Of a stretch of 64,000 nucleotides of DNA, positions 9,529 through 59,854 are shown one piece after another. Position numbers and translations under genes: made by a program. The stretch covers positions 2,170,001 to 2,234,000 of the forward strand of contig JANCIK010000001.1 in assembly GCA_028532985.1 (NCBI GenBank). The letters run 5' to 3'. How positions within the stretch are numbered: position 1 is the first letter of the stretch; every line of letters starts with the position of its first letter. This DNA is from Stropharia rugosoannulata (lineage: Eukaryota; Basidiomycota; Agaricomycetes; Agaricales; Strophariaceae). Below the pieces are notes generated by a model, which did no database searches, was not told the DNA's origin, and saw only the letters and a list, made by a program, of their open reading frames with translations.

Positions 9529-9545
9529 TGAACTATTTCTCCTTT

Positions 9546-26939: not shown

Positions 26940-26960
26940 AAGGAGGAACGCCGGCACAAT

Positions 26961-27652: not shown

Positions 27653-27837
27653 AGGACGCCGATGCAGATGGAGAAGTGGACTCGCAGGTCTGAGCATCTT
27701 GCTGACCAAAATTGTCCCATCGCATTGCACCGCCGGTCGTCCTTTGTCATCTTGTGTCTTTTGTTTTGTTTTTTTGCTCCATTTATGCAGTTGTGTATTC
27801 ATATGTACTTGCATGATTAATTTCATTGAATCTTTTT

Positions 27838-27945: not shown

Positions 27946-28016
27946 GGCTACCAATTTGACTGTATGCATTTGGCCTTGATGTCTTAGAGCCTTATATGCT
28001 TGAAGACAAAATGATT

Positions 28017-28878
28017 GAATGAAACCGGCGGCCACACCAGCGGTCTCAGCATACTCTGTTAGTCATTTGATTTGCACAAGTCTTTTAAATGTACCCTAAA
28101 ATGTGACAGGTGTATATTTACTGGAAAGCAGGTAATCCGACTTCGTAATGGGAAACCGCCGGCCTCACCGCCGGCCTCATACAACATTTAAACACTTTGT
28201 TTAGACCAGCTCAGACTGTATCTTTGCGTGAATAAAACACTAATTATGTCATTGTATGCAGCCTGGCCTACCAAACATGAACACTAGTTGATTAGGCAGA
28301 ACCGCCGGTCTCACCGCCGGTCTACATTCTTTAGATCCCCTGCAAATCCATCATATGCTAGCAGATCACGTGATTCACTGATGCATTTGTGCTTACGACA
28401 GCCGGCCATATTTGTACCAGGCAGCCGGAGCTGACGACTAATGATGCCGGCTGCATATATGAAAATCGCCAGTCAAGAATCATACTATTAAATGGATCGC
28501 CGGTCTCAAATGAAATATGGAACAGGCAGCCGGGTACTGAACATGAAACCGCCGGCCTAAATGACATTCGCCGGCCAATATATAAATTTTTTGAATATAG
28601 CGCCAAAAATGTTTCCAGTCGCCGGTTCGAAATCCGACATTTAGTGGAACAGACCGGCGGTCATGTCCTTCAATCGCTGGTCCTTGTTCTCCCTAGTGGC
28701 AATTCCATTTGTTGAAAATGGCCCCGTAATTCACGGTCAAATACTAGCCTCCCATTAGTCCCGTGTAGCACGGTAATATACTAGGTTTTCATTAGCTCAA
28801 AATAACTCCGTGATCCACGGTATAATAATAGTTCACTGTACTACTATAGATCACAGTACCCAGCCACTGTCCTATGTG
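28017..28878 (-). repeat. Right TIR of KDZ element 2
   Basis: Inverted partner of 15540-16397, ending CCTATGTG at 28878 before the duplication GACAAAC. It differs from the left arm at few sites, for example agcgg here against cgccgg on the left (reverse sense). Bases 27653-27837 between gene e and the TET remnant hold only one CCGCCGG word and AT-rich 3' flank. Confidence 0.9.
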
Positions 28879-35100: not shown

Positions 35101-36078
35101 GAGGGCATCTTGGCAACCCCAATCCCACCAGGGTTTGGAGTGAGGGACAATACGGGCCTCAACAGCATGTTTGTTCCATGCTGTGGAGAAGGCATCAGCA
35201 ATAGCCGAAGCACATGCGTCCACCTGAGCCAGAGTATCAATAGTGCAGCTGAGTACGCTTATTGATTCCATAATATCTGTGAGGAAGGCCTCTTCGGCCT
35301 CCGACCCAGGTTTGAGAGACTTTCTGAGAGGGTCAGAAATAGTTAGAGAGAGGGGCAATGACACCGCTAAAGGGCAGTGATCAGAGGCCAGTTTGAGGTC
35401 TTCGACTCGCTCCACAAGGCATGTGAGTGAATCGGAAGTGGGGATGAACATCAGATCAATGACTGATGGGGTAAGCCTCGCATTGCGCGAAACAAAAGTA
35501 GGTCCTGGGTTGCAGAAGCGGCCCAGGCTGAGTGTAAAGGTGGCTGCCATGTTGAGCAGCCGGTCGGCCGCACTCCTGTGATGGGTCACATTGGGATCCC
35601 ATTCACGAGAGTGGCAGTTAAAATCCCCGCCCATGTAACACAGGTCAATGGGAAGATTCAGGTCGTCTAGAAGATGAACAGCAGAATGACGCTCATCATT
35701 GTATATGTTGAGCAAATTAAAGGATGCTCCCTGATGGAAGAGGGAGACAAGGAGTAAATCACAATGATTGATCAAGTCAGATCTCATCGTGGGGCGCAGT
35801 GTGGACAATCAGCTAGCGATATAGGCCATGACCCGAGGCGGGCCTTCACTGTCAGGGGGGCATACCATCGGTACCCAATTAGGGTTACGCGGTGCGCCGG
35901 CAATGTCATCGCCGTCTGGGTTAGACGTTGATGGAGCAGATCTTACAGTCTGCCAGGCAGGTTCTTGTATAAATATTAAATCATACTTGTTATGGCATAG
36001 ATTTAGAAGTACATCAATAAGCAAATAATTCTTCGCTACATTGAAAGATAAAACCCTAAGACTCTCCAGCCCTCTCAT
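32173..36078 (-). pseudogene. LINE ORF2: endonuclease, RT, RNase H, zinc finger; two in-frame TGA
   Basis: The ATG at 36078 opens a 1301-codon frame broken by TGA at 35811-35809 and 32544-32542. The first part is an APE-type endonuclease (LSFNVAKN, IQEPAW, MGGDFNCHSREWDP, ASDHCPLAV). RT follows (FRPIVLLN, FDIAQFFPSLNH and the catalytic FIDD in place of YADD). RNase H (IGTDASVPASK, LFTDSLSS) comes next. A carboxy finger CDCG..H..C lies after the second TGA (residues in 32415-32250). Both stops fall where reading through restores typical family sequence, and both could be former CGA codons. It nicks DNA and primes reverse transcription on the target. Confidence 0.88.
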
Positions 36079-37101
36079 TGAGCTGGACAGGGGGAGTTAG
36101 AAGTGTTACACTGGCTCGCATTTGGGGTGCATACCTGGGCATATTTAGCAGTGATCCACTCGGGATCATAGCAGTGGCGCCAGAAGGGACAGTGCCTTCT
36201 GTCAGTGGCGCTGTGGTTGCCTTTGCAATTGGGGCACCTTGGCGCATGTGGACAGTCTTTGCCTTTTGGGGTCGGCGCGACAGGGGGGTTAGCCTTGGGG
36301 TTCCCTTTGCAGGGGCCGCAGAGCTGACGGTGCGAAGCTGCATCATGCAGGCCGCTGCAGTGAGGGCAGCGCACGTGGAACACGCGACATGCTGATGTAG
36401 GGTGGCCCCACCTATAGCAATGAGTGCAGAGTGAGACACCGACACAGGCCCTCGCTGCCATGATGCGGCAGGAGCGGCCTTTGATCATAATGGTGCGCCC
36501 GATAAGGCGCTTCACGTGGGTGCCCTGTTGGGAATCCCAGACCTCAAAGTACGCAGTTGAGTTAGAACTGGCCTTGGAGACCCTGTCAAGTCGGACAGAT
36601 GACCGAAGCTTGAAGTCGGGAGCGAGGGGAGAAGCCTTCATGGCATTATCGACCTCGTCGGGCGTAACCTTCACCATTGTAAAAGGCGAAGCAAAGGTGG
36701 GGACGTCGACGATCTTAAGATAAGACCACAACTGGGGAAGGTCAACCACATATTTCATACCCGCCCAAGGCGAGTTGCGGAACATGGGTTCGAAACTCCA
36801 ATACAAGGCGTCCAACGTATGAGCATTGGGCACCTCGTTTGTGGCAAGGGACCAGCCTTCGTATGCAACAGAGGCAGAAAGGACCCGGAATTTAGACTTC
36901 TCGGCGATGAAGACTGTGTTGGCTGCCGAGACAAGCAAGTCAAGGCTCAGATTATGCGCTTGTGGGCCCTTAGACGGGTCTGCAAACGTGAGAAATGCTT
37001 GCTTTCGGGTAGGACCGGCAGCAGTGTAGGAAGGAATCCCTTGCTTGCACTTGGGTTGAGAGCCAGAGGCTTGCTGCTGGATCTCAATGATCTGGCGAGC
37101 A
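36075..37101 (-). pseudogene. LINE ORF1, 3' portion with zinc knuckles
   Basis: This is the carboxy part of ORF1, continuing from 53570. It contains a knuckle CTHCYRWGHPTSAC, then CPHCSGLHDAASHRQLC and CPNCKGNHSATDRRHC, the gag-like set of Tad1-clade ORF1 proteins that coat the RNA. Its TGA stop (36075-36077) overlaps the ORF2 start ATG (36076-36078) as ATGA, suggesting reinitiation. The KDZ insertion is the only damage I see. Confidence 0.88.
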
Positions 37102-37852
37102 CACATAGGACAGTGGCTGGGTACCGTAGTATACGGGACCTCAGTAAACTATTAGTATACCGTAGATCACGGGCCCATTTTCAACAAATGGCAACCTAGT
37201 ATAATACCGTGATCTACGGGGCTAATGGCAACCTATCTTAGTACCATGTTTCACGGGGCCATTTTCAACAAATGGCATCCGCATAAATAGGTAGGTAAAT
37301 CCGGCGGAACCAGAAAGTTAAATAATTAAAAAGCGGTAAAATCGGCGGCGATGTGCATAAAAAGAGGTAAATTCAGCGGCATTATAATTTTCACAAAATG
37401 AATTCCGGCGGTTGTACTGAAAACACCATTTCTATCCGGCGGATATAGTCACATGATTTTCTCAAATTTCACGGGGCTAGTGGTAAATATTTTAATACCG
37501 TGTGCTATAGACTCATTTTCAACAAATGGACTTCTGAGAGTTTCGATGAGCCGGCTGGAAGAAATCCGGCGGCGAGGTGATGGTGGATGAGAATGGCCTG
37601 TCACTCCTCTCCGACTTATCCAAAGCTGATGGAATGTACCCAAACTGCCCAAAATACTTCCACCCAGCTATCCTTTACGGAGTGGACCAATTGGGTTACC
37701 AGGGGCATGTATTCCTTGCCTGGAACAGGGAATGATTTTAGCAGGTGAAGCTAAGCGGTCTGCCAAACCACCAAATTGGCTTTCTCCGCCGGTGAATGCG
37801 ATATTCCCGGCAAGAACCTGGCGCAATTCAGCGTCAGAGGAGCGAAGAGAGT
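37102..37852 (+). repeat. Left TIR of KDZ element 3
   Basis: This arm pairs with 52818-53569 with only a few differences, one being accatg here for accgtg on the right (CpG). Four 15-bp imperfect palindromes of the form ACCGTRnnnnYACGGG lie at 37123-37137, 37159-37173, 37206-37220 and 37243-37257. They alternate with the palindromic CCATTTTCAACAAATGG. These repeats look like transposase-binding sites. Degenerate copies recur near 37470-37530. Confidence 0.92.
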
Positions 37853-38707
37853 CGGTCACCAGCATCATAAGGGTTTTTGGAAGATTTGGATTTGATGCCT
37901 ACAACGGAGACATAACTCCAAATGTTACCCCATGATGGGTGTTTGTTCATTGCAAAACACCCCCAGTGACCAGGTGGAGCTGCCAGCCAAACAGCGCAAG
38001 TAGGCGGGGGCGGGGGCTCAAGGGGACCAAAAGGCGCAAAGCGGCGGGGTCGGGGGCGCAAAGAGGACCAAAAAGCCCAAAGGGGCGGGGGCGGGGGCGC
38101 AAAGGGGACCAAAAAGCCCAACGGGGGGGGTGCGGGGACCAAAAAGCCCAAAGGGGCGGGGCCGGGGGCCCAAGGGGCGGCGGAGCAGCCGGCGGCCGGC
38201 GGCCATGGGGCCCACGGGGGGCAGGGGCCCAAGGGGGGCCAAAAGGCCCAAAGGGGTGGAGGCCCCCGCCTATGGCCGGCGGCCGCCGGCTCCTTCGCGC
38301 ACCCTTTGGGCCCCCGCCCCCCTTGGGCCCCTGCCCCCTTGGGCCCCCGCCCCCCTTGGGCCCCCGCCCACTTGGGCCCCATGGCCGCCAGCCGCCGGCT
38401 GCTCCGCCGCCCCTTGGGCCCCCGGCCCCGCCCCTTTGGGCTTTTTGGTCCTCTTTGCGCCCCCGACCCCGCTGCTTTGCGCCTTTTGGTCCCCTTGAGC
38501 CCCCGCCCCTGCCTACTTGCGCTGTTTGGCTGGCAGCTCCACCTGGTCGCTGGGGGTGTTTTGCAATGAACAAACACCCATCATGGGGTAACATTTGGAG
38601 TTATGTCTCTGTTGTAGGCATCAAATCCAAATCTTCCAAAAACCCTTATGATGCTGGTGACCGACTCTCTTCGCTCCTCTGACGCTGAATTGCGCCAGGT
38701 TCTTGCC
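37810..38707. repeat. GC-rich fold-back palindrome in element 3
   Basis: The two halves (37810 to about 38258 and 38258-38707) are inverted copies: the arm ggcaagaacctgg...cagcgtcagagg at the left returns inverted at the right. The inner 250 bp of each arm are short GC repeats such as caaaGGGGCGGGGGC and GGGGaccaaaaagccc, so one strand is G-run rich then C-run rich. Mirror-image frames beginning MFVHCKTPP in both strands come from the palindrome and are not genes. The outer edge is the inner part of the TIR. A related unpaired GC-rich block lies at 52618-52800. Confidence 0.85.
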
Positions 38708-39242
38708 AGAAATATTCTACTGACACACGGAGATAGATAGCCCTGCTGTGTCAATGGGTGCACATGCATGCAACACATCCGGCGGCGAAACCGCCGGATC
38801 CATCGCACCTTGACCCTTCCCTGATGTGAAACAATTCTGCAAATGCTTTTACTACTTCTGTCCTTTCCTACCTCAGCATCCTTTCCATACACCCTTGCAT
38901 TATTTACTTAGGTCAAGCCAACCACTTTCAATGTTACCTCAAGATGCAGCTATTATCAGTAATAATCGAGCTTTGTTAACACCTTATTGGTGGGGCTGAT
39001 ATAATGTAGGCCGGCGCATTATATGACGCCAGGATGTGGCGCTGAGATCACGTAAGGCCGGCGGAAAGTGAACTTTAAATGTTCGAGCTATGTTGATTGG
39101 TGCCGTGGGAATGTTTGCTATTCTTTGTACAATGTTGAACTTTATAATAGCTCTAGGCGATCACCGGTTGTTTTCTTCTCTCCCACACCTTCATACTCTA
39201 AAAAAATCCCTCTCCTCCTCATTTTTCAAGTCTCGTCATCAA
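38708..39242 (+). promoter_or_regulatory. Upstream region of gene a, element 3
   Basis: This non-coding stretch before gene a has CCGGCGG words near 38780, 38793 and 39057 and the pyrimidine run ctctcccacaccttc (39179-39193) shared with element 2. A TATAATG-like stretch lies near 39000. No frame is conserved. Confidence 0.4.
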
Positions 39243-40185
39243 ATGGCCACCACATACAGCAACATGGAGCTCCGAGAGGCAATTCTTGCCTTCCACTTCG
39301 ATTGCATCAAGGTTTGGGAGGGTGGGGAGCAGGTATACCTGCAAGAGAGGAAGAGGTTATGGAAGGCATTTGTGAGTATTGATTTCATTTATTATTGGAT
39401 ACTTACATTCTGTGAATAGATTGAACTTCGAGAACGCAAGAAGACCGCTGCCGGCCCTCGAATCGGGTGGACGCTGTACAGCTATATGCTGAAGCTCGTG
39501 TCGTCGGACTCGCCGGCAGATGGAAAGGAGGTGGAAGGTGTGAAGTGGGAACAGTGGAGAGGAATGGTCGAGGGAGGGCTGTATGTCCTGAGGCGAGAGG
39601 ACCAGGCCAAGGTTGAGGTTGAACAGTCAAGCCTCCCTGTCATTAGTAAGTCCTGTTTCATTGCTTAATACATTATACTAATTATTCCGTAGAAAAACGG
39701 CCAGATATTGTGAAGGCCAGGGCACCAGTTCCGGCGGCTCAGCCGGCGGCGCAACCGACTGCGTTTCCCGCGCCAGTCCCCATCCCAACCCGTGCGCCAG
39801 TCCCAATCCCTGCCACTGTCCCTACACCTGCGCCCGTGCCAACCCCCGCCCCTATCCCGGCCCCAGAGCCCGTGCCAATGCCCGCTCCCATCCAGCCCCC
39901 AGCGCCCGTGCCAACGCCCGCTCCCATCCCGCCCCCAGCGCCCGTGCCAACGCCCGCTCCCATCCCGCCCCCAGTCCCCGTGCCAACGCCTGCGGGGCCT
40001 ATCCCGTCCCCGGCCCCCGCGCCTATCCCGCCTCCAGCGCCCGTGCAAATGCCCGCGCAAATCCCGGCCCCCGCACCCCTGCCAATGTCCGCAACGGAGC
40101 AACCCTCAGGTGCAGCGCATGTCTCCCCCTCTCCGCCGGCCGTAATCCGCCGGCCAAGAAACAAGAAACTGGCGGTGAGGGAGAA

Positions 40186-41238
40186 CATCAGGAAAACCAC
40201 TTTTTTGAAAAGAGACTTTTTGAGACATCTATATGTCTCTTGGGAGATTTAGTGTCTTTTTGAGACATCAATATGTCTTTTGGTGAATTTTATGTCTTTT
40301 TTATACTTTTAAAGGTCTCCTAGAGACTTTGGGGAAATATGTAATTCTTCCAATGTCTTTTTAGGTCTTTTTATTTCTTTTAAAGTCTTTCAAATTTTCT
40401 AGGTATTTAAATGTATTGATGTAATTGTATAAATCTTTTTATGTCTTTGAAAGTTTTTAAAAATGTCTCATAAAGTGTATTAAAAAGCTACAAAAAGACT
40501 CAAAAAGACATTTAAAGACATAAAAACCTGGGAAAAAATTGACTTATAAATAGCTATTGTTAACTATTACTTATAATCTACATTGTAGGTCTTATATAAA
40601 ATACATCTGAACATGACTAAATTCAATGACTTGTGATGTAATAAATTAATGTAGTCTAGAGCATTACCATCATATTTGACCTGCAGTTAGTCTATATACA
40701 CAGGCACATGGTGTAGGGGAAAGTATGCTGGTTTTAAGTCATGCATGAAGCTGTTGGTTCAATTCCTGGCAAATGCAAATTATTTCCACAGCATAAGTTC
40801 CCCTTCCCATTGTACCCAAGTTAATGTGATGGTTTATTTGCCATTGTATCTTTATGTAAGATGCTGACTAATATAGTTACTTCATGACAAATCTTAAGTA
40901 CAATTTAAATATATCTAATTACCTACTTACAAACTCTTACAAATACAATCTAATCTATGTAGTAGTGATTTGGCTAAGATGAGGTCATGTTTTTAATGTT
41001 TTTATAAAGAAAAAATGTGACATTAAAAGACATTTAGAGACATCTAGAGACATTATGAACACATAAAAAGACATTAAAGAGACTCCCAGAGACATAAAAA
41101 AGTCTTTAAAAGTTTGATACCTGGAGACTTTGCTTTAAAAGTCTCCTAGAGACCCAGGTCTCCTGGGGTCTTTTTAAGTCTTTTTAAGTCTTTTTGAAAA
41201 ATTAAAAGACTTTTTCTGAAAAAGTCTTTTTCCTGATG
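40186..41238. mobile_element. 1053-bp AT-rich TIR insert in gene a, unknown family
   Basis: The insert starts CATCAGGAAAA and ends TTTTCCTGATG, with AA repeated at the target. The inner flanks are packed with GTCTTTTT / AAAAAGAC and AGAGAC / GTCTCT words in both orientations, densest in the outer 250 bp at each end. No coding frame of note. It splits a codon of gene a exactly where element 2 is continuous, which proves insertion. A tRNA-like stretch lies in its middle. The AA duplication does not fit a family I can name with confidence. Confidence 0.75.
40702..40780 (+). other. tRNA-like pol III promoter sequence inside the insert
   Basis: TGGTGTAGGGG (40709-40719) resembles an A box and GGTTCAATTCC (40756-40766) a B box. 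They lie 36 bases apart, in the order and spacing of a tRNA gene. The stems do not pair well enough for a working tRNA, so this is either a decayed tRNA or a tRNA-derived element promoter. Confidence 0.4.
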
Positions 41239-42919
41239 AAGACCCCATCCCCAACCGGTGCACATCCGGCAGCATTCCAAGATGTTGTCCAGCCGCAGAG
41301 GAAGGTCGTGGTCGAGGTGCCCAAGGGCAAGAAGACGCAGGGGAAGAATGCAAAGGGACCCGCAACGCAGCCGGCAGTTGCGGGTCCCTCCAGACTTCCG
41401 CCGGTTCGAGCAAGCGAAACCTTGAGTGATGACGACGAAGACCTACCCCTGGCTCGCACTGTGAAAGTCAAGGGAAAGGGAAAAGGAAAGGCAAGGGCAA
41501 TGGAGGTGGATGAACCCAGCCCGCGGGCGGCGGCGACCCCAGCCAGGAGAAGCAGGAGCAGGAAGACCGAAGATGAAGACAGCGACGTTCCGCCGGCCGC
41601 CGGCAAGGGGAAAGCAAAGGGCAAGGGCTCGCATTCGAAGGGGTTGCCCATCCCCGAGGGTTGTTATGCAAGCCAGACTCCTTGCTGGTCTTGCATCAAC
41701 CGCGGGACGACCTGTCACGTCGAGTCGCCGGAACACGAGGCCGCCATGCTCGAGAACCCCATCAAGCCCTGTACAACTTGTCAGTTGTACAAGAAGCCTT
41801 GCTTGAAGACGGCGGGCGCAATCACCCTCGACGACAAGGTCAAGCTGTGGGTAAAGCACCTCACGCGATTCATCACCCCAGATGGGGCACGGGCGTTCCC
41901 CACACCGACAACTGTGGGAGATACCCTCCTACTGACTCTTGACGCAGCGCAGAAGGCAGTGTCAGGCCTCGAGAATGGCGTCGACGAAATCAGCACCGAA
42001 GTTCAGGCAGTGCAGAAGCAGCACAAGGCACTATCGAAGAAGTTTGAAGATGGCGTCATCGCGATCGAAAACGTCGAGGATAACGTCGAGATGGTGGAGA
42101 AGAAGGTGGAGACGATGCAGGCGGCGATAACAGAGCATGGTGAGATGCTCCTCCACATTGTGGAGGGGCAGGCAGCCATTGTGACGCTGTTGAGGGCTTT
42201 GGGGCGAAAGGTGGGCGGAACCGATCCCGAGTTCCGCCGGGAAGACGATGGCGCATCGAGACAGGACAACTTGCAAAAGTTGTTCCCAATCTCGACGGCA
42301 ATATTCAAGCGTCAAGATGCTCATGCCGCCGCCGGACGTACACCGGCGGATGCAGGCACCATTCCCCCACCACCACCCATTGCTGCCCCGACACCACCCG
42401 CCCCCACAACAAAGGCAAGGTCAAGTTCACCACCGGCACCATCTTCTCACGAGGACATGGAGGAGGATGACAATGAGGAGGACGAGCTGGAACAGGATGG
42501 CGAGGATGACGACGACGATGACACCGCCGGCGAGGACGACGGACAAGCAGAGGAGTCAATTTCGAGGGCTGGCAAGAAGGCCCTGCAAGGGAGTCCGAAG
42601 CACACCCGTAGTAAGACAAAGGCGAAGGTGAAGGCAGCAGCAGTACGTGTGCCCAAGGCGAAGGACACTGCCGGGAACAAACATGCGCATGAGGAAGGTG
42701 ACGCTGATCCGCCGGCGAAGAGGGTGCGAGGTCGTCGCGCGAACAAGTGATAGATTGCTTGTTCCCTGTCCGGTATCTTGTGGGCATTTGGCCCTTTTTT
42801 TTATATTACATTTTGTTCCCGTAGTCAGTTGAGCTCTTGACCCAGAGTCAAGGGCAAATTCATATTTTTGTGTTTGGCAGAGAATATAAGTCTATTAAGT
42901 AAATTAAGAACAAGCAACA

Positions 42920-45169
42920 TTAATGTCTAGCAGACTTCTTGTTGCTCGACTTGGTCATACTTCGTGTGCGCAATCCGTCCGCCGGAATTTTCGTGTTTGA
43001 ACGTGTTGAACGGCGGAAAGTCTTACCAACTACAATCTCTCGCCTATGTCGCTTCCCCCTGCCTTTGTTCTCCTTGTCATCATTCTCTTCACCACCTGCT
43101 ACTTTCTTCGCCTTCAATTTGCTTTTCCCTCTGATATTGGATACATCACGAAGTCCAGGTGGTCTACCCCTTCCCCGGCGGCGTGCCGGCGGAATATCGA
43201 TGTTCTTGACAGCTATTGCGGACTTGGGTGGCTCAGGTGATTTTGCATTCTCTTCAGCATTGCTGTCTTGCCCACTTGAATTGGTCTGCTGGTGAGTACC
43301 CATGGATACATCGCTATCTGCATTAGACTCTGTGGTAGCAGCTTTCTCTTTTCCCTTATCTTTCTTCTGCTTCAAAATGAAGTTGGTCGCTACAAAACGC
43401 TTATGGACCTTCTTGACCTTCTTCTGCCGGCTCGATTCCGTCCCTGAAGAATCGCTCTCATGAGTTTTCACCTCATCTTTCCGTAGCAGTCGACGCCTGG
43501 GTGAGGGTGCAATTTCATCATCTGGCTGATGATCATCACAAGCAGGATCGGCCGGCGGAATTTCTTCCAATGATGATGATGACGAATATAATGATGAGTT
43601 TTCTGCATAGTCTGCCTGACGCTCCAGCTCGGAAAGTCCAATATCCTCTTCTACCGGCCTACCCATGTCCAGCGGAGGAATTGAGAATGTTGTAAATATA
43701 TCTGCGGGATAGACTGCAGGGATACAAGTCATCTTCTCACCGATAACAGCTTTGAATTTAAATGGAATTTGATTAGCAGCCTGTCGCCGGCGGATGAGAT
43801 CAAGAATTGCAAATGCTGTTTCCCTTGTGTACTTGGACAGATCTTTGAATGTCACCCCACGAGGCATATAGAGTGGGTCTACTAACTCTTGCCAAGCATC
43901 AGCCTTTGCCAGATGTGTATAGGGTGGTCCCCTCGACGACTGTGTTGCTAGACCTGTGACAGGTTAGACTATCGTCTCCCCAACAAATAAATATGTGCTT
44001 ACAGTAATGTAAACCATAATATTTTCATATCATTCCTTGCATGACCCTGACACTTTCCTTTCGTACCTTCGGATTGTATGACGGCACCCAAGGGAGACCA
44101 GATGGATGTGTATTACTCCTACCCCCTGCATGGTTAGGGTCGCCGGCGGAGCTACGTTTGAGTTCAGTGATGTGTTCAATATATTTGATATAACTGGCCC
44201 GGATGCCATCATATGCAGCCGGATCAAATTCTTGGAAGCTGGGGAAATGCATTGGCGCATTGGGCTGCACAACCTGTGTGTCATAACTCGAAGGTAGTCA
44301 GGGCCTAGTGCATATATGTAGTCATAATTATTACATACACTGTGAATGTCGCATTTCCGTCAGGTTTGGTGAATGTTGTGATCCAGAAGGAGCGTACACC
44401 CATGCTATCAAACATCTTCTTGTCAACCTCACGACAAATGTCTGCACAATGTTTTACAGCCTGTCTAAAAACATATCAGAATGAAGCCGCTGCTCAGACA
44501 ATTCACATACTTGGCTTGGACATCCGGCGGAACACCCTTTGCTTTCCACTCCGAGACCTCATTTTGATACTCGGCTCGCTCCTCTTCCGTAAGCATTTCC
44601 TTGATATATTTCTTCGCCCCTGCATAGTACCTGATCCAGGATCGGCTGCTATAGCCAGCACCAAGGGAGGCGGTCTTGGCGTCATCATCGCCAGATTCCG
44701 CCGGATCGGGAATGAGATCTTCATCAGAATCGGCAGCTGCCTCTCGCGCTCGACGCTTTGCTTCTTCCTCAATCTCCTTGCTTTTGTGCGCTATCAGTAC
44801 TGAATCGAAAGTAACTTCCATATTGAAGCCTTTGATTTTCATACGTCTGGAGGTCTTTCCATTGTTCTTAAACCAATTAAATATTGACTGAAAGTATCGA
44901 CATTGAGTAATGTGCACATAATATAATATTGTACTTGCCTTTTTCTTCTTCTTCCACTCTTCCTGGACCTTATCGTTGAAATCTGGATTGTTTCTCTGGT
45001 ACCTTGTGCCCCACAGTGCCTTGATCATTTTGATAACCTTCTCAGCAACAAATGTTCCCTTTCTCTCCTTCACCTGTGCACGATAACCCTCAACATTGCT
45101 TCGTAGAATTTTCAATTCTTGTGCAGTCCAGATGTATGTCGATGCAGCAGTTTCTACAGGTAGTGTCAT
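42920..45169 (-). pseudogene. Gene b, element 3: conserved unknown protein with a nonsense codon
   Basis: Exons 44939-45169, 44511-44887, 44339-44464, 44003-44286 and 42920-43953 join in frame to 683 codons with a single TGA at 44027-44025. The element 2 protein reads GIIRKYYALHY where this one reads GMI-stop-KYYGLHY; a CGA codon changed at CpG explains it. Intron 1 uses a GC donor (AAAAAG|GCAAGT); element 2 has GT there. Conserved blocks are as in element 2; the tail ends in RRSTRSNTK and RTRSMTKSS, basic motifs typical of nuclear proteins. The break removes the last 60% if translation stops. Confidence 0.75.
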
Positions 45170-45341
45170 TGGAGGAGGGGTATAAATTGGTTCGATGAAT
45201 GGATGTCACAATGGTATACGCAGTATATATATACATACAGACATGTGTATCGATATCGATTATTATGAAGCAGTACACATGTGGCATTGGTTTCTTAATA
45301 TAAGGTCGAACACCAAATGCACATGCAACTGTCTACTCTCA
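45170..45341. promoter_or_regulatory. Divergent promoter of genes b and c, element 3
   Basis: This 172-bp gap separates two start codons facing away from each other. It shares the GTGGCATTGgTTTCTTAATATAA block (45281-45303) with element 2. A run of TATATATACATACAGACATG near 45224-45243 is not shared. Confidence 0.55.
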
Positions 45342-48300
45342 ATGCGCCGTGTCCGTATAACCCAGCACAATGTTCCCAATCAAGCTGGTGGCATCCAGAT
45401 AGAAGAGCGGGACCATAGAGGAAAGGTCATCACAAAGAAGCGTAAACGTGGTGGTGAACCTGTCGCAGAGAATGTAGCACCGACTATTCCTGCTATTCCT
45501 GCTATTCCAGACATTCCACCAGGCTTTGAACCACAGGAAGTACCTGACCGTCTTGACTATGCTGGAGATATAACTGAGGATCAGGTTATCGAAAACCTAC
45601 AAAACTTGGATCTACCAGTATACAGAGGCAAGGTATGTTGTATCACCCACATGAATTGCACACTGCATATATTAAATCGTGCAGTCGCAAAACGATTTTC
45701 TTAGAGAATGGCTTGTCAGAAGGGATACCCACTTGAAGATTGTTATGGCATCTCATGCACCTGCCAGAGGGATCGATACATGCAATGCTTGCAATGCACC
45801 TGCTGCCAAATGGAAGTGTAAGGCATGCTTTGGAGGACGACTCTTATGCACGACATGTTGCCGGCGGATTCATGATTTCATGCCATTCCATCGTATTCTT
45901 CATTGGGATGGTAGTGCTTTCACACCGGCGGCGCTATGGCAAGTCGGTGTAAAGCTTCATCTTGGCCATCAAGGAAATAGATGTCCTAATACAATGGTCG
46001 ACTACAATGATATACAAGAAATGCAAGAGGTGCAGTATGGAGATGAACATGAAGGCGATATCCGCCGGGCTTACAATGCTGGTCTGCAACCTGAAGCTGA
46101 GGAAGGTGCCGATGAATATATTGATGAAGACACAATTGTCTTTGATATTGATGTTACTTACCCTCGAGTCTTACCGAGGCCAGCCCAACATGATACCCAT
46201 GGTAATCCATTTGTTACAATTGTCGAAGTAAATGGAATCCATCACCTGCCGGCTGTCAAATGTCACTGCAACAATCAGCCGCCGGAGGATAACCAATACA
46301 TGCAGCTGGCACTATTCCCAACCTCCTTCGATGTGGTCAAGACTGTCTTCACATTTGCTGTTCTTCGAGACTTCAGGCTGTCTAACTTGGAGTGCAAGAC
46401 ATCTGCATATCAGTATTACACGAAGCTCCGCTGGTTGACCTGCCCTGCCTTCCCACAAGCAGTATTGGATCGATACCGTGAGCTCCGCCGGCTGAGTAGA
46501 CAATTCCGCAACATGAAGATGTGGACCATGCATGGCAGAGCTCATGGACTATGGCGCCCAAACCCTGACCCACCAGCTATCCCGGAAGTGCAGATTCTTG
46601 CTGATAATGAAATACCAAATGAGGATATTATGCCACCAGCAGTTGCAGCACAGTCTGAATCAGACAGTGAAGTTGAGGCACCAGAAGACGCCGCCGGCGA
46701 TACCGCCGGAGGGATTAAAACGACACCATCAATGTACGGCGATATACTGGCTCTATTTTGCCCTGCTTGTCCTCAACCAGAAATCAACCTCCCTGAAGAC
46801 TGGAAAGAGAATGACAAGAAGTTTCTTTTTATTCGCAAGTACTGTGCTGATGGGAACTTCAAGGCTGACCATTTAAATCAAAAGAATGCCCATGACGATA
46901 TTGATTTGACAGCCGGCCAGGCATTCATGACAGCTGCCGGTCCATACCAGGAGCATTTGAAGGATGCCAAAAAATATTCCAGGAAATTCAAGGAGCCGCC
47001 GACTTGCCATTCTCACCGTGCACAGCTTGACAGTGAAAAGGTTGTTTCTGGCCGCCGGGTCAGAGGGATTGGTGTACAGGCATGTGCAAGACACGGCTGC
47101 TTCTGTCCAGGCAGCCTTGTTGACTTTGAATTGGGCGAACGTCAAATGTGCATGGACTACAGTATTTCTGAAGCACTCAAGCATACCAACACCGGTGGCA
47201 TCGAGACTGTCATGTTCATTTATGACATTATGTGTCAGTTCTACAAGAATATGACTAGGCGATTTCGACTAATGAAGGGTCTCACTTGGCCACAAAGACT
47301 TCGATGCATACGCGCAGTGGGTCTCTGGCATGTACATGGCCACAAGACAGAATGTCTATATAGATGGGCATCTACCTATATCCCTGGTGTTGGCATGGTA
47401 GATGGAGAAATCCTGGAAACCCTGTGGAGCCTGCTGAACAAGACATCTCGCAGTGTTCGGACTGCAACCGCCGGCCATAGAGCTGAAGTCCTCGATGACC
47501 ACATGGGCGATTCAAATTGGAAGAAGACTGTCAATATGCCATCTACAATCATCAAGAAATATATTCGAGCAGTGAATCAAGAAATTGATTCCATTGTGTA
47601 CTATAACGATATTACTGCAAGTATGCCGGCGGATAAACTGCCAGAATGGTTGGAACAGATTGAGGCTGCTGAATGCCGGCGAGATGAGGACCCAGAAGCA
47701 ATGGACATTTATCGACCGGCTGTGCAGAAGGCTGCAACCATGCGAGAAATCGAGGTGCAGCTTTCAGAGAATGAAATTCGAAATGGGGAGACAGGCGGTC
47801 GAGCTGTATGGCTCTCACAAGGTATTCAAGCTGAGCAATTGCAGTGAGTATCAATCATTATTACCAGACAATTTATTCATTATTTAGAAATGAATTGCGG
47901 TCGCACGTCCGCCGTATGCCTCGAGATCCTACTGTGGCTCAGCATCAGGATCTTGTACGCCGCCGGCACACACTTCGCAAGCAGCTGGACAAATTTGCTC
48001 GCAATGCAGTTGACATCATGGGCATTGACATTGTGAATGGCTTTAATGATGAGCATGATGTCCCTATCCTGGATGGTGCACAAACAGATGAAGAAGCAGA
48101 GGTGGCTAATGAAGAAGTCAGTTATGCTGACCCTGAAAGACAGCTGATGGCCTTCCCTTCAGAAATCACTGAAGAGATTTTGACATCCGCCGGTGCATCT
48201 GCCCAGGATAAATCTGTTCTCCGCCGGTTGCGAAAAACAGAGCTAAAGATCAGAAAAGCTCATGCTGATGATTTATTAGAATCAATTCGTGGAGAAATCA

Positions 48301-49042
48301 TTCAGAAATCTTGGCTATATGCATTTGACGTCAGGAGGACAGATGGTGCCCACCACACTCGTGCACAAGATCGTGTTGTGCTACTCGCCCAAGCAACCAG
48401 CACACACCGGCGGAAATATAATGAGAACAGATTGTCAATGCTACACCTTGCAAGGGATGACACTGATAGGGTTGCCATTGAACAACAATTCCCCATCATG
48501 TCAAAAGCTGATACAAATACTAGTGCATCAATAACTGAACCGAATGCAAGAGGGGGTAGCAGTTCTCAAATGTCTTGGATATGGAGAATAGAACATAATA
48601 TGGATCCGCCGGATGATAATCCGCCGGTCGCAGGAAATCTCAATCGCGAAAGAATCAATGATTGTAAGTTTTATTGATATTTATCAAGCTGTGACTAAAT
48701 ACAATTGTAGTCTATCGAATTCATTGGCTACGAGCAAGAGCACAGAAAATGCGCTGGGAGGAAGAGGTTGTGCTATGTCAGCATGAAATGGACTGGACAG
48801 TCCGGTTCTATGTGCATATGGCAAATATGTGGAAAGACCGGCGGAATGTCTGGGCAGATGCAGTGACCGCCATTCAAAACCCATCAAATGACGCCGCCAG
48901 CCAATTTAATGCTCACCCACTAGGTTTCCAGGCTTACGCACAGGCACAGATCAACTTATGGAATGAGTTAGGTAGGGTAGCGGACGCTAGATTTAGTAAG
49001 GCATACGTACATTATATAAGCCACTGGTATCATGTGGCCTGA
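45342..49042 (+). CDS. Gene c, element 3: intact KDZ transposase
   Basis: Four exons (45342-45632, 45685-47843, 47888-48663, 48711-49042) join in frame to 1185 residues with introns of 44-52 bp. The start MRRVRITQHNVPNQ is conserved in element 2. A cysteine cluster near residues 130-150 (CNACNAPAAKWKCKAC, CTTCC) is the CxC type linked to KDZ transposases. The RNase H-like core shows YDIMCQ (Asp near 611), then HVHGHKTEC and DGEILETLWSLLN (near 670), hallmarks of the KDZ class. A CX-rich stretch GVQACARHGCFCPGS precedes it. It should cut at the CACATAGG ends and make 7-bp duplications. Element 2 has the same gene with a stop. Confidence 0.93.
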
Positions 49043-49143
49043 GAAATGAATACATGTGACCTTATCGATCTGCGATCAACATCAACCATCCCTCAAAATT
49101 TCTTCTTCGACACTCCTAACACCTTGTCATCATCTATCTACTA

Positions 49144-50053
49144 ATGTCCTCCTCCATCTCCATTGAGAATTCCACGGCCGGGACAACCGAAGACTCTCTC
49201 ATTGACAAGATTCAATGCAACATCTTTTTGTATATTTGCATGGTACGAATCCGCTGCGCGCTCCGCTGCCATCCTACCCCCCAGGACATTTCACCAACAC
49301 ACATGTATTCAAGGCTATTCCTGCGAGAAATTGTAGGGAATATTTATGATATCGGTATATTATTAACTGAAAAAACCATGATTTCAGGAATTGACTCTCA
49401 TGCACATCGGCACTTGTAATTTGAAGGGATATCAAATGTGCAAACCGTATCTTCTCGATCAAATCGCGACCGCCGGATATGGCGTCGCCCGCCGGCCAAC
49501 CGAATTCCCACTTCCACCAGCCTACGATCCCGAATTCATGCAAGGGGAAGACATTATTCACATTGCTGTCACAGATAATCTGCCCACATGGTGGCTGATG
49601 GATGACAATGAGCTTTATGACCAGGATGTCACCTGGGACGACCTTCATCATCATTTCTGCAAATTCTTGGAGGTCATGCATGACATGTACAAGGATACAA
49701 AGAAAATCCCTGACTTGCTAGCTGGTTGCGACTACCCATACGAGTACATTCCTGGGCTTGCAGAACATCCGCCAGAATTTGCTCCGCCAGTTACAATGTG
49801 CCTCTCATGCCAGGCCTACCAGAAGAAAATTTGGTGGCTGAAGTTCTACCATAACATGATGGAAGAAGAATTCGATAGGGAGCCATGTGTTCAGAGAAGC
49901 GAGCCAAGAGAAGTTTTGTGGGAAATGAGAGGGGAGCCTGTGGATATTCCGCTGCCGGAAATGAGCATCCACAACATTCTCCCAGGGTGTCTACTCATAA
50001 GGTATGTAAATTCACTGTCAGATCCTTATGTCATCCCATCTCCCTCGCTTTAA
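49144..50053 (+). CDS. Gene d, element 3: unknown KDZ-element protein
   Basis: Two exons (49144-49332, 49388-50053) give 284 residues; the intron (donor GTAGGG) is at the site used in element 2. Shared patches are QCNIFLYICMVRIRC, KGYQMCKPYLLDQ, GYGVARRP, AYDPEF, TWW, YIPGLAEHP and the CX2C pair CLSC before a KFYHNMMEEEFDRE helix. The carboxy end is shorter than in element 2. No known domain. It is the third gene in a plus-strand run c-d-e. Confidence 0.7.
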
Positions 50054-50110
50054 AGACACCAACATATCAAACATTCGCCGTCTCCAAGCAAATCAGATAA
50101 TCAAACGGGT

Positions 50111-51101
50111 ATGATAAGTCGATCTCCCTCTCCCTTCCACCCAAAACGGAGTCGTTCCGCCGGTCCATCCGGCGGCATCGCGCGACCCATTCCCAGAGTC
50201 ACAAAACCAGGGCATGTGTCTGAAGCCGAAATGCAGGCAATGTATGCTGCACGCTACCGTCGTTGGAGCCCATCCCCGGAAGTGTCCCTGCCTCTGGTCG
50301 ACTATTCAGTGCCCTGCAACAGGGATGCACCAATATATATCTCATTAGACAATGAGGCGCCCGACGACGCACCCGCCGGCAAAGAAGACAGCGACGATGA
50401 TGCCCCCCTTGATGCACCGGAGGGTACACAGCAGACAGAGGACAGAGTCAGCATTACACGTGATGGTGTCGATGAAGAGGAGGAAGCCCCCCTCGATGTC
50501 ACAGTAGGCTCTCGGGATACTGACGATCTGCCAATGGATGAGCAGCCACCCCATACATCCGCCGGCGAAATGGAAAACGATGATGATGCCCCCCTCTATG
50601 CGACAGAGGGTACACAGGGAAGCGAGGGACCCTTGAATGTTCCCGGGATTGATAATGAAGATGAAGAGGCCCCCCTCGATGTCCCAGTAGGCTCCCAGGT
50701 GACTGACGATCAGCAAATGGATGATGAGCCTCCCCACACATCTGCCGGCCATCAGAAAGACGATGATGATGCCCCCCTCGAAGCACCAGCGGGCACACAG
50801 GAGAGGGAGGGTCCTGATGAAGATGAAGAGGCCCCCCTCGATGTCCCAATTGGCTCTCAGCCTACTGAGGATGAGCCTATGGATGAGGATGACGCCCCTC
50901 TGAATGTTTCCGCCGGATCGGACAATGACGACGATGCACCACTGGGCAAGTCTCTCATTTATTACCTATATATTACATACTAATAAATAGACACTAGATG
51001 TGCACAATGACGAAAATATGGATGACATCAGCTCGGTATGCACTTCTATTCCCAATTCCTGGAGCCCCAACTCAAGCTCCAGTTCTGACTTTTCTGATTA
51101 G
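50111..51101 (+). CDS. Gene e, element 3: acidic repeat protein
   Basis: Exons 50111-50945 and 50998-51101 join in frame only with a GC donor (CTGG|GCAAGT) and acceptor CTAG|AT, giving APLDVHNDE. The protein is about 312 residues. A basic N-terminus (HPKRSRSAGPS) is followed by about ten repeats like DDDAPLDAPEGTQ and EEEAPLDVPVGSQ, then WSPNSSSSSDFSD. The repeat core differs from element 2 (APL against PPM) but the plan is the same, which suggests selection for composition and not exact sequence. Confidence 0.7.
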
Positions 51102-51310
51102 GAGGCCGATGCGGATGGCGAAAGCGACACTGAGATGTGACGCAGACGGCAGGATTAATTTTTGCTTGTCATCGAATCCGCCGGCCTCATTTTTTTTTCC
51201 ATTTTTTTTCGTTTCTTGTCGCTTGCTCAAGGCCTTTAGGCCTTCGTAATATCTCAATTGTAATGTGTTTGGCCTGCTGGCCAATTTTAATAATAAAAAT
51301 TATAATATTT
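51102..51310. terminator. Convergent 3' flank between genes e and f
   Basis: This 209-bp AT-rich gap lies between two convergent genes. It contains one CCGCCGG word (51178) and AATAATAAAAATTATAATATT (51287-51308), suited to poly(A) signals on both strands. Confidence 0.4.
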
Positions 51311-52553
51311 CTACTCTATCTGTCTAAACATATTTACATTTGCCCAAGTGCTAACAGTGTCGGTCAAATCTGATATTGCAGACTTTGAGTGAAAAACTAA
51401 ACAAGTCCTGTCACCTTCACAGTGAGCACTGTGAACCACTAGCCTACTAGTCAAGGCAACAAATGTTCCAGCCTTATACTCTAAATCCAAACCCAACCCC
51501 GGCAGAGCCATTTTACCCGTTTTGTAAGGACCCAAACTAATGATGATATCGAACATTGAATGGCTTCCACCGGAATCTCGATGCAGCGGCGAGTCTCTAT
51601 TGTTGATGACCGTAAGCACCCCAAATGGAACACTCCAATGTTCAAGTAGTCCCTCCAACTCTGGACCATGCCGCACTTCATCAGGGTGATCACTTAGCCA
51701 GCTAAGCATTTTCAGTCCGGCAGCATACTGGCTGGGGTTGACAATACTGAGGAGACCACCGATCAGCGCAAAAAAATCCTTTTGCTTCTTTATCCATGCT
51801 CGGCCGCCGGACATCCTAAGTTTGCGACCAACAATGGGTGGCCCAAAGCACTAGTTTTTGTCAGACACAGTATTTATTTCTTCCGCCGGACGTACCCCAT
51901 GCCCCATCTCAAACCATGCAATTGCAAGGCTAACATTGCCCGCCTTTCTCCACTCATCTCTCTGATGATAATGATCAAGGCTGCTTCTCCAATTTGCTTT
52001 ACATTTGGTGGTCTTCATCAAGCATGTTAGTTCATCCACACTTCGCCATAGTTCCTCCTTTCTCTGCTGGTTAACTCTCTAGGCCGGCGGAGAAATGACG
52101 CAATCTTACCTGCAGATATGACATTATTGCATTTGGAAGGTACCATACTAATATGTTGCCCTCCTTGTCGGTCACCAAGCAAGGCTTCCTTAAATGCCGT
52201 GTCTCCGTAAATATTGGCGGGTACTTCTTCAGCATTTTATTTTCAACATTTTCATTCTTCCCTGTTTGTTTACTCGACATGCTCTGCTTGTAGTCATGGA
52301 CACTCCAAGATGTTGAATCTGATTTATTTTAGTAACACTTATATTGATCATCTATTAATGTCTTACATTTGTTCTTGAACGCTGTCACCAGAGAGTCAAT
52401 AATATGCTCGCATTCCCATGTCAAATGTGCTGTCAATGCTTTTGGTGACTCAGGGGGGCTGGTCTTGTTGACATGGCACAAGAATGAGGTATGCATATAT
52501 GCAGCCACAACCTCTGTCATCTCTCTTGGGCTATATGAAAATTTGGGAGTCAT
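51311..52553 (-). CDS. Gene f: TET/JBP-family 2-oxoglutarate/Fe(II) dioxygenase
   Basis: Four exons (52367-52553, 52110-52318, 51896-52054, 51311-51850) with introns of 45-55 bp join in frame to 364 residues. The start domain is unknown; KEGNILVWYLPNAI (about 115-128) is the usual family lead-in. The double-stranded beta-helix core holds the iron ligands His275 and Asp277 (SPLHRDSGGS), LGPYKTGKMALPGLG, AGTFVAL, a distal His near 325 (LVVHSAH) and Arg333 (GDRTC) for 2-oxoglutarate. All catalytic residues are present. The enzyme is expected to oxidise 5-methylcytosine in DNA in the nucleus, possibly keeping the element unmethylated. The third intron acceptor is ACTAG|TGC; the later TTAG|GATG would break the frame. 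It is last in the element, next to the right TIR. Confidence 0.9.
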
Positions 52554-52617
52554 GGTTGATTGAAGGAAAGAGGTGTGTTGATCATGTGATTGAAATATTT
52601 CTTGATTTTCTCATCAG

Positions 52618-52800
52618 GTATAGGGGGAGGGTGCGAGGGCGGGGACCCAAAGGCGGCGGGGGCCCAAGCGGCGGAGTACGCCGCCGGCCATTCGGCGAAA
52701 GAAAACGCTCAAAAGTCCCGCAAAACGCCCCAAGGGGCCTCAAAGGGGCGCAAGGTGACCCAAGGAGTAGCAGGTACGCGTTAGCCGCCGTCTCCATACC
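52618..52800 (+). repeat. GC-rich block beside the right TIR
   Basis: Between gene f and the right TIR is a stretch with GGCGGGGacccaaaGGCGGCGGGGG and later caaggggcctcaaaggggcgcaagg, like the repeats in the left fold-back but not palindromic. It may be the source or a decayed copy of that fold-back. It lies within about 70 bp of the gene f start and could affect its promoter. Confidence 0.6.
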
Positions 52801-52817
52801 AACCTCTGGTGCCTCTT

Positions 52818-53569
52818 GACTCTCTTCGCTCCTGTGACGCTGAATTGCACAAGGTTCTTGCCGGGAATATTGCATTCACCGGCGGAGAAAGCCAATTTGG
52901 TGGTTTGGCAGACCGCTTAGCTCCACCTGCTAAAATGATTCCGTGTTCCAGGCAAGGAATACATGCCCCTGGTAACCCAATTGGTCCACTCCGTAAAGGA
53001 TAGCTGGGTGGAAGTATTTTGGGCAGTTTGGGTACATTCCATCAGCTTTGGATAAGTCGGAGAGGAGTGACAGGCCATTCTCATCCACCATCACCTCGCC
53101 GCCGGATTTCTTCCAGCCGGCTCATCGAAACTCTCAGAAGTCCATTTGTTGAAAATGAGTCTATAGCACACGGTATTAAAATATTTACCACTAGCCCCGT
53201 GAAATTTGAGAAAATCATGTGACTATATCCGCCGGATAGAAATGGTGTTTTCAGTACAACCGCCGGAATTCATTTTGTGAAAATTATAATGCCGCTGAAT
53301 TTACCTCTTTTTATGCACATCGCCGCCGATTTTACCGCTTTTTAATTATTTAACTTTCTGGTTCCGCCGGATTTACCTACCTATTTATGCGGATGCCATT
53401 TGTTGAAAATGGCCCCGTGAAACACGGTACTAAGATAGGTTGCCATTAGCCCCGTAGATCACGGTATTATACTAGGTTGCCATTTGTTGAAAATGGGCCC
53501 GTGATCTACGGTATACTAATAGTTTACTGAGGTCCCGTATACTACGGTACCCAGCCACTGTCCTATGTG
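52818..53569 (-). repeat. Right TIR of KDZ element 3
   Basis: Inverted partner of 37102-37852, ending CCTATGTG at 53569, followed by GCGAGCA. It has the same four palindromes near the end. The 67-codon frames mirrored in the two arms are not genes. Confidence 0.92.
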
Positions 53570-54415
53570 GCGAGCAGGAATGTTGGGAAGGGCCTGAGCA
53601 AGCTGAACAAGCCCAGCCGGGCCTTTACCGACGTTGGTGGTGGGGGGGCGCGACCTGGCAGCAGCCGAGTAGGACTTACGGGGCTTAGTCGCGAGGTTAA
53701 TGGCCGGCAGCATGGGAGGCCACTGATACGGGCAGACGGGCCTGGAGGGCCGTGGGTTGATGTTACCGGTTGCCCGGGCCCGTTTAGGGGCCGGGGTCTC
53801 GGTCTCGGCGTCTGATGGCTCCTCAGCCTGGGCCGCAGCCGAAGCTGAGGGAGGGGGAGGAACGGCAGAAGCCGGGGGGGCAAGAGATGCAGTGGGGGCC
53901 CCTTCGCTATCAGAGGTAGTGTCCATCGCAGCTTGAGGTTGAGCCCAAGGGATGCCGGAAGCCCTGTTGACAAGGCCGAGCAGCGCAAGGCAGAGATTGT
54001 TTGGGTTACAAGCCTCATTTTCATAATTGTCCCAGTTGGAATTGAGTTCGAGCCAGGCTGTGGTCTCGTTCAGGGCATGCACAATAGCTTCGAGGTCCAA
54101 ATTTGCAGTCTCATCAGTGCAGACAAGATTAAGGAATTGAGGCGTGGGCAGAGAGGAACCCGACCCCCCCCCGGAGGAGGAGGCAGGCAGAGAGGAAGAG
54201 CAGTTGTCACCACAAGCCATCTGAGTGTCATCATCGTCGGAAGAATCGGAATTGTCATCCTCGGGAGTATCCATAGGAGGTCCAGATGTCAACCTCGAGC
54301 TGGATCGAGGGTTGGAGGGGTTGGGAAGGGAGCTCGAGCAAGAGGTAGGAAAAGCGGCAGCCGAGGACCCACTAGAAGATCCACGGCCGCAGCCGGCTCC
54401 TCCTTTGGGAGGCAT
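53570..54415 (-). pseudogene. LINE ORF1, 5' portion
   Basis: ATG at 54415 (MPPKGGAGCGRGSS) begins ORF1. The part is Ser/Pro rich with an acidic patch (DDNSDSSDDDD), then a conserved block with W residues (TTAWLELNSNWDNYENE) and a basic Pro-rich tail (KRARATGN). It ends IPAR at the element 3 junction and continues in frame as QIIEIQQQ at 37095. The low-complexity start with later knuckles is normal for Tad1-type ORF1. Confidence 0.85.
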
Positions 54416-59136: not shown

Positions 59137-59854
59137 GGTTATGAGCCCTGCGCTCTGAGCATCCTACTCATCACTCCTCTACTGTCCTTTCTCCACTGAG
59201 TGGCTTGGTACTTAACCTAACACTCATCGTCATTTGTTTTGCCTTGTTTTTTTGTGAGCACAACTGCCACGTCACGACCGTCGTTCTGGTACCACCTGCG
59301 TTCCACCAGCTTGCACGGTTATCGAGCAATCCGCCTCTTTTGGTTTTAGGTCAATAGCACTCTCTTGGTGTTCACCAGAGACTTTGCTCCCTGGGCTTCC
59401 CTGATCGTCGAAACACGTGGTTCTTTCGAGGACCTCATCGTTACACGTGTCTCTCATCACTTGCCCACTCACAGGTCATCACACTCAGCCGTTCACTTGC
59501 AATTCACTGTTCTTCACCAGAGTGCTCAACTCCGTCCAATTGACACTCTGAAACAGTTTTGCTCACTGCACTCGCACATCGTCATCGTCGTTCGCACAAC
59601 TGGATCACACACGTTCTGCAGTGTTGAACAACCCTCTTGCACAGTCTCGTGTCAATCGGTTCACTGCTGCTCGTGCAATCGACGTTTTACTGCAAGTGCT
59701 CAACTCGGCCTAATTGTGATACTGCAAGTGTTCTGCCCACTGCTCGTGCATCTCACCCCAGCTCGTCTCGCAACTTTGTCACATCGTTTGCGCCATTCTC
59801 AGCTACCACCTCATACCACTTCACGTCGTTCACCACGTCGCTTCACCTGCAATC
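59137..59854 (+). other. Copia F primer site and leader
   Basis: GGTTATGAGCCC at 59137-59148 then about 700 bp of leader, similar along its length to 13261-13966. The open frame at 59365-59883 is not conserved with gag and is not counted as a gene. Confidence 0.7.

Follow-up and report, generated by a model that had tools for sequence, protein, structure and literature searches.

How a TET dioxygenase carried by a transposon could act on its own element without demethylating the genome of the host is a question for which we found no answer. It is raised by a locus of the basidiomycete Stropharia rugosoannulata, a stretch of 64,000 nucleotides on contig JANCIK010000001.1 (C1:2170001-2234000 of a scanned genome of 48 Mb in 20 contigs; hereafter the window). 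At 37102-53569 the window contains element 3, a DNA transposon of the TET+ Kyakuja type that encodes a KDZ transposase, a TET/JBP dioxygenase and several accessory proteins. A first-pass annotation had identified the element by its KDZ and TET/JBP genes, which stands, but had overlooked both a short motif, CCG-S-CGG (S, C or G), dispersed along the whole element, and a gene for a protein with a Zn2Cys6-like zinc cluster. We propose a self-tagging form of anti-silencing, in which the zinc-cluster protein would be the reader of the motif and TET the effector, and demethylation would be restricted to the element's own family; we give this proposal about an even chance of being correct.

The commonest 7-mer of element 3 (16.5 kb) is CCGCCGG/CCGGCGG, which occurs 67 times between 37102 and 53569 (4.1 per kb), including 45 occurrences in predicted coding sequence. 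Dinucleotide shuffles of the element (n = 200) contain 1.55 ± 1.25 of these tags, with a maximum of 7, and the genome-wide density is 0.10 per kb, the tag word and its reversed form being equally common in the genome (4871 and 5060). No tag is present in the 29.6 kb of the window outside KDZ elements, a control comprising a Ty3/gypsy stretch within element 1 (7.9 kb), a long interspersed nuclear element (LINE) region (8.2 kb), a copia region (10.4 kb) and a 3-kb spacer, in which the retrotransposons were identified from single open reading frames. Element 1 itself has six tags, which are confined to the 2.5 kb at its left, while its nested Ty3/gypsy middle is tag-free, and CCGSCGG is also absent from an insertion nested in element 3 (counted over 40190-41237). 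The core is strict: element 3 has 67 CCGSCGG and no CCGWCGG (W, A or T), and 11 of the 12 aligned copies are without CCGWCGG, the twelfth having one. The sequences around the sites are largely independent: among the 1596 pairs that sites beyond the terminal repeats can form, 9 share at least 14 of 24 flanking bases (2 at random). Regular spacing was rejected for element 3, where the coefficient of variation of 1.01 corresponds to random placement; in element 2, a sister copy in the window, it is 0.75. Because the flanks are largely independent and the spacing is random, the tag is not a repeat unit. Its density per kb is 6.6 in the terminal repeats, 5.8 in the left noncoding part, 4.2 in exons, 2.8 in introns and 2.0 in other intergenic sequence. 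As a sequence feature of this one genome, the pattern is well supported.

The 45 coding tags are distributed over the three codon phases (17, 15 and 13). Permutation of synonymous codons with the protein and the codon usage held fixed (n = 1000) yields 6.2 ± 2.3 coding tags and at most 15, and the observed and expected numbers run from 17 against 1.2 in the transposase gene down to 1 against 0.05 in the TET gene. Three comparisons between subfamilies were confined to regions below 75% identity and relied on a single MAFFT alignment, a procedure that can be biased towards matching motifs; in them, 6 of 17, 3 of 18 and 14 of 28 sites aligned without gaps keep the core. For random 7-mers all six outer bases match in 7.5, 7.8 and 10.7% of cases, so that retention of the core is 4.7, 2.1 and 4.7 times as high; the other sites turn over. 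The central C/G is swapped in 3 of 6, 1 of 3 and 4 of 14 of the kept sites. Core conservation between element 3 and element 2, the second of these comparisons, is not significant when taken alone (P 0.16). The Fisher tests treated half-sites as independent; the B-type copies, which are 97-99% identical, count as about one lineage, and loci L009 and L010 are not independent of L037/L038 and L039/L040, being inside the same copies. The tags look to be selected as DNA, beyond the constraint on the protein, which suggests that protein-binding sites are building up inside coding exons under selection.

The bases adjoining the core differ between subfamilies. Outside the KDZ core the base 5' of CCG is T47, G39, A10 and C4 in element 3, whose tag with its flanks reads T/G-CCG-S-CGG-A/C. 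It is A61, G22, T3 and C4 in the B-type copy C13_1382, and A54, G32, T5 and C5 in element 2. The latter (15540-28878, forward strand) has a perfect 7-bp duplication, GACAAAC, and 66 tags with the A flank; it encodes a zinc-cluster open reading frame (17179-19023, 614 residues) and a KDZ frame with one TGA, and of its TET gene only a 30-codon remnant was found at about 27826-27915. The tag is specific to this group of elements: in each of the 20-kb stretches examined from D and C, two more distant TET+ families, there is one CCGSCGG. In family D, inverted CGG pairs with spacers N3 and N7 number 33 and 20 (shuffle means 2.1 and 2.2), and in family C those with N7 and N2 number 20 and 17 (2.2 and 2.2; 100 shuffles each). 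Weaker spacing peaks are present besides, and none was found in three retrotransposon controls. Further family D loci, L012 and L013, have 5 and 12 N3 pairs, and the family C locus L011 has 6 N7 pairs, in stretches of 3.4-3.5 kb. The KDZ locus L004 (C10:747633-751367), which has no neighbouring TET row, contains six copies of CCGCGG, an everted CGG pair with spacer 0, within 3.7 kb and may carry yet another code.

The candidate reader is encoded on the forward strand at 39243-42750, in a gene that is split in element 3. The proline-rich 5' half (39243-40185; predicted exons 39243-39371, 39420-39645 and from 39693) runs on into the sequence from 41239 onwards in the copy C11:1987770-2003378 (L021/L022). 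The 3' half (41236-42750), an open reading frame of 504 residues, contains the pattern CX2CX6C-X18-CX2CX6C and, downstream of it, a long helix predicted as a coiled coil, and the D-type protein has CX2CX6C-X24-CX2CX6C. All 11 proteins that were aligned, the D-type included, have the six cysteines without exception. The six-cysteine pattern CX2CX6C-Xn-CX2CX6-8C with a downstream coiled coil is present with n = 18 or 24, a loop between the two halves that is presumably longer than in other members of the Zn2Cys6 family. In Pfam, the D-type protein matches Zn_clus below the gathering score (E 0.016, 15.7 against 21 bits) and the E3-type protein is not listed; a sequence profile search of solved structures gave 48 matches, the best being coiled-coil or helical proteins, with no Zn2Cys6 entry.

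Resemblance to Zn2Cys6 proteins is seen at the level of the predicted fold. The AlphaFold model of the 63-residue domain (mean pLDDT, the predicted local distance difference test, 77.7) has a short helix beginning at each CX2C. In Foldseek searches of the PDB with the domain, 14 of 16 matches are Zn2Cys6 DNA-binding domains, and when the coil is included the proportion is 15 of 22; each match is weak alone, and several are chains of one entry. The domains matched comprise Leu3, Pho7, Ppr1, Put3, Gal4, the ethanol regulon activator, Hap1 and 1cld, which we take to be LAC9; the model of the cluster (41683-41802, forward strand) resembles the Leu3, Pho7 and Gal4 domains. Passages of PMC5559640 describe Zn2Cys6 proteins as typically being coiled-coil dimers whose targets are paired CGG triplets (inverted, direct or everted), and the reference list of that paper assigns everted CGG half-sites to Leu3. 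The CCG-S-CGG layout of the tag is such a pair of CGG triplets. The second half of the cluster reads CTTCQLYKKPC in E3-type and CSTCQYMYKKPC/CSTCQHMYKKPC in B/E2-type proteins, with a difference of one residue in length. On these sequences the zinc loop appears to change in step with the tag flank across subfamilies, a parallel that is suggestive only, because the changes in loop and flank may be one event.

The zinc-cluster gene is associated with TET across the genome. A profile search gave 123 KDZ and 32 Tet_JBP rows, which are exon pieces and not whole genes; 31 of the 32 Tet_JBP rows exceed the cut-off. Of the 32 TET rows, 25 have a zinc-cluster gene at a distance of at most 22 kb, as do 23 of 26 TET-associated KDZ rows against 10 of 52 others, defined as those with no TET within 15 kb; certain rows were excluded from this count. 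The D-type zinc protein, used as a query, finds C-type zinc genes (34-46% identity), and three family C TET rows have a zinc row within 12-16.2 kb. Around one further family C copy no zinc motif was found in the 20 kb examined, its KDZ row and the nearest zinc row being some 35 kb apart.

The putative effector is encoded on the reverse strand at 51311-52553 (368 residues; exons 52553-52367, 52318-52110, 52066-51896 and 51850-51311); the exon models of element 3 were made with a simple script and have no transcript support. The search with the Tet_JBP profile hidden Markov model proposed in the first-pass annotation placed the open reading frame of the last exon above the curated cut-off (2.7e-12, 46.7 bits against a gathering score of 34.9). 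The only two solved sequences matched by the dioxygenase are CcTet 8jkk (1.6e-31) and 7vpn (1.9e-31). Within the region aligned to CcTet, all catalytic residues that the annotation had claimed are found, namely the HxD...H iron triad (H279-R-D281 and H329) and the 2-oxoglutarate arginine (R337).

Differences between copies carry the trace of the likely substrate. Among the four near-identical E3-type copies, C>T changes affect 5.1% of CpG sites against 0.47% of other C/G, and among the six B-type copies 1.7% against 0.05%. A bias from CpG to TpG is the usual footprint of deamination of 5-methylcytosine, and, judging by these substitutions, the elements probably are or have been methylated and so probably have borne the mark on which TET would act. 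Specific sparing of the CpGs within tags by TET found no support: they change as often as other CpGs, and local protection at the tag is not seen. It is plausible, as the first-pass annotation had suggested, that the TET enzyme counteracts silencing of the element by the host.

In the mechanism that we infer, the family-specific CGG-pair motif, with which the whole of element 3 is labelled, its genes included, would most likely be read by the element's own Zn2Cys6-like coiled-coil protein. Bound along the element, this protein would mark the DNA as self and would either bring in TET or make room for it. TET would then oxidise 5-methylcytosine at these places and could so reverse the host silencing of its own family alone. 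A broader reading is that each TET transposon family writes its own CGG-pair code through all of its DNA and encodes a matching zinc-cluster reader targeting TET to self. The codes would be CCG-S-CGG with a T or an A flank, inverted CGG-N3-CCG or inverted CGG-N7-CCG, reader and tag would coevolve, and the system would be independent of VANC of plants. This generalisation is offered tentatively and seems to us rather more likely to be wrong than right; the E3-type zinc query finds neither the D-type nor the C-type zinc genes, so that sequence searching does not tie the two zinc groups together, and this speaks against it.

A different possibility is that the tag is indeed the self-recognition site of the zinc-cluster protein, and that the effect does not pass through TET, which would act separately and unaimed. 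The bound protein would then open chromatin, activate transcription over the length of the element, or exclude nucleosomes and methyltransferases, as VANC reportedly does without an enzyme. Element 2 has tags and a zinc-cluster gene and only a remnant of TET; therefore, either B-type copies, which have the same flank, supply it with TET in trans, or the zinc-cluster protein has an effect independent of TET. The 10 KDZ rows that have a zinc-cluster gene and no TET nearby, and the decay of CpGs inside tags, point in the same direction. Nevertheless, the association between the zinc-cluster gene and TET is strong (23 of 26 rows against 10 of 52), and B-type copies with the same A flank could serve element 2 in trans; we regard an effect without TET as somewhat unlikely.

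The tags could instead be sites at which the transposase or transpososome binds for cutting or target immunity, similar to the subterminal repeats of CACTA transposons, which are binding sites of this kind. The terminal repeats, whose 1504 bp hold 10 tags (6.6 per kb), are indeed the richest part of the element, but tags extend over 16 kb and into coding exons (4.2 per kb), and element 1 shares the termini yet has six tags, all at its left. Moreover, the E3 and B transposases are about 93-97% alike despite the different flanks of their tags, whereas the zinc-cluster proteins differ along with the flanks, and this explanation is improbable. Still less credible is that the tags are a by-product without function, arising from compositional or codon bias, spread of microsatellites or gene conversion. 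The element is GC-rich in places, and the repeats of accessory gene f hold a few tags, but both the synonymous-codon shuffles (6.2 against 45) and the dinucleotide shuffles (1.55 against 67) fall far below the observed numbers. The largely independent flanks, the near-complete lack of CCGWCGG in the 12 aligned copies, of which 11 have none, and the swapping of C and G at the centre of kept sites also argue against it.

Element 3 is one more transposon of the published TET+ Kyakuja type. The target-site duplication GCGAGCA is exact on both sides (37095-37101 and 53570-53576), and together with the termini 5'-CA..TG-3' it agrees with the values given for Kyakuja in section 3.2 of PMC12730594. 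The terminal inverted repeats (37102-37853, forward, starting CACATAGGACAGTG, and 52818-53569, reverse) are 752 nt each, one more than first annotated, with 8 mismatches between the arms (98.9% identical); the duplication and the near-identical arms support the earlier view that the element was recently mobile. With at most one mismatch allowed, the 14-bp terminus is matched at 51+62 genomic places and the reversed pattern at 13+2, and the matches are therefore not due to chance. Of ten further copies that were cut out, four are bounded at the same termini by perfect 7-bp duplications, two have duplications that differ by one base, one lacks a duplication, and for three the stretch includes a single end; the duplications were judged by eye from the flanks. 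Exact copies of CACATAGGACAGTG number 85 in the genome and are clustered in a few stretches of many chromosomes (e.g. C1 2.17-2.41 Mb and C2 0.95-1.47 Mb), perhaps representing nests near centromeres. Just inside the left end there is a GC-rich internal inverted repeat with G-rich repeats (37780-38736), the 327-bp arms of which (37780-38106 and 38410-38736) are 94% complementary.

The gene set, described as complete in the first-pass annotation, is interrupted. A non-autonomous insertion of 1,053 bp (40186-41238), with ends CATCAGG...CCTGATG and AA on either side, splits the zinc-cluster gene, and element 3 is therefore not fully intact. Two close sister copies, C11:1987770 and C13:2080807, are without the insertion, and their zinc-cluster gene is continuous. 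This copy of the element is probably functionally incomplete, though the downstream half of the gene retains an ATG. The ends of the insertion resemble those of PlavakaB as given in section 3.2 of Kojima 2025 (PMC12730594); the insertion is rich in 'agac/gtct' words, and the C10:926k copy (L018) has the end of a similar insertion aligned to this position of the zinc-cluster gene.

The KDZ transposase gene with its CxC2 cysteine cluster (45195-49042, forward strand) has three predicted introns and encodes 1234 residues, with an uncertain start codon. Its reading frame is free of stops, consistent with the intact transposase noted earlier, and a 722-residue open reading frame matches Pfam KDZ (PF18758, 2.5e-44) and CxC2 (7.1e-21). 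The E3 and B proteins are about 93-97% identical in aligned pieces of the transposase core, while most 500-bp bins outside it have 43-69% nucleotide identity. Comparison of 45600-49050 with loci L025-L036 likewise finds the subfamilies far more alike here than elsewhere in the element. The transposase module looks to have been exchanged between subfamilies. Accessory gene c (42920-45169, reverse strand, about 655 residues predicted) has relatives among elements of types B, E2, C and D; no Pfam family scored above the cut-off in the two open reading frames scanned. Accessory genes e (49144-50005) and f (50111-50983; a 290-residue open reading frame with acidic repeats) are on the forward strand, and the 3' end of neither is settled.

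Most of the window consists of nested transposons. Element 1 (144-12512) has E3-like ends, no matching 7-bp duplication and a left part of tandem and inverted repeats, and holds a Ty3/gypsy element with a chromodomain (about 3306-11200) with identical 300-bp stretches of its long terminal repeats. Open reading frames of a LINE-type reverse transcriptase (32545-35808) and a copia-type polyprotein (59720-62125) adjoin element 3.

TET was reportedly first associated with such transposons by Iyer et al. in 2014. KDZ elements with TET/JBP genes are published for Agaricomycetes, as the first-pass annotation had noted for basidiomycetes, and in the sections of Kojima 2025 consulted (PMC12730594) the TET+ Kyakuja of this class are characterised by 7-bp duplications and 5'-CA..TG-3' ends. 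Element 3 shares with them the KDZ transposase, the TET/JBP gene, the duplication, the ends and many copies per genome. It differs in its 752-bp terminal inverted repeats, two Laccaria families being described there without any, and in its zinc-cluster gene, three further genes and dispersed family-specific tags. The same paper suggests that TET relieves silencing and speculates that the Agaricomycotina (AG-type) TET has no target specificity. In a word search of its main text, 'motif' occurs only in protein or terminal senses, and 'CpG' and 'CGG' do not occur; the sections and passages covered mention neither a dispersed motif nor a zinc-cluster partner of TET+ Kyakuja. Among the papers listed in the literature searches, with Iyer 2014 and Chavez 2014 outside their scope, none was seen, from its listing, the start of its abstract or the passages covered, to describe dispersed CGG tags in KDZ elements or a zinc-cluster partner.

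A family tag and a candidate reader make self-targeting by TET directly testable. If the proposal is true, the elements would possess a codable, sequence-guided system of DNA demethylation, and a natural pair of zinc-cluster protein and TET could serve targeted demethylation. TnpA of maize Spm is a transposon-encoded DNA-binding protein tied to demethylation of its own element; its sites, unlike those of element 3, are subterminal, and no TET-class enzyme is known to be involved. The DNA uptake sequences of bacteria are short self-identifying words across coding and noncoding DNA, but they are chromosome-wide and serve DNA uptake. With the fungal Zn2Cys6 proteins Gal4, Leu3 and Put3 the element protein shares CX2CX6C...CX2CX6C and a downstream coiled coil, and its tag shares the pairing of CGG, which is everted or inverted in passages of PMC5559640. 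It differs in its longer loop (18-24 residues) and in being borne by a transposon, and its sites have a one-base spacer and lie in gene bodies rather than promoters.

The closest functional parallel is with the VANDAL transposons of Arabidopsis and their VANC proteins, which, in the parts of the reports consulted (PMC5735166, PMC10398659), have a dense, short, element-specific motif that differs between related families. There too the candidate reader is encoded by the element, and the proposed outcome is a family-specific loss of methylation (Hosaka 2017, Sasaki 2023). The VANC motifs are mainly noncoding tandem repeats in one orientation (PMC5735166, PMC10398659), whereas the tags of element 3 are single and dispersed, mix the two centre bases on one strand and lie mostly in coding exons. 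Furthermore, the candidate reader of element 3 is Zn2Cys6-like, and the element supplies its own demethylating enzyme. The likeness is one of working and not a claim of homology; if the proposal is correct, element 3 and its relatives would represent a second, independent case, beside VANC of plants, of sequence-specific anti-silencing.

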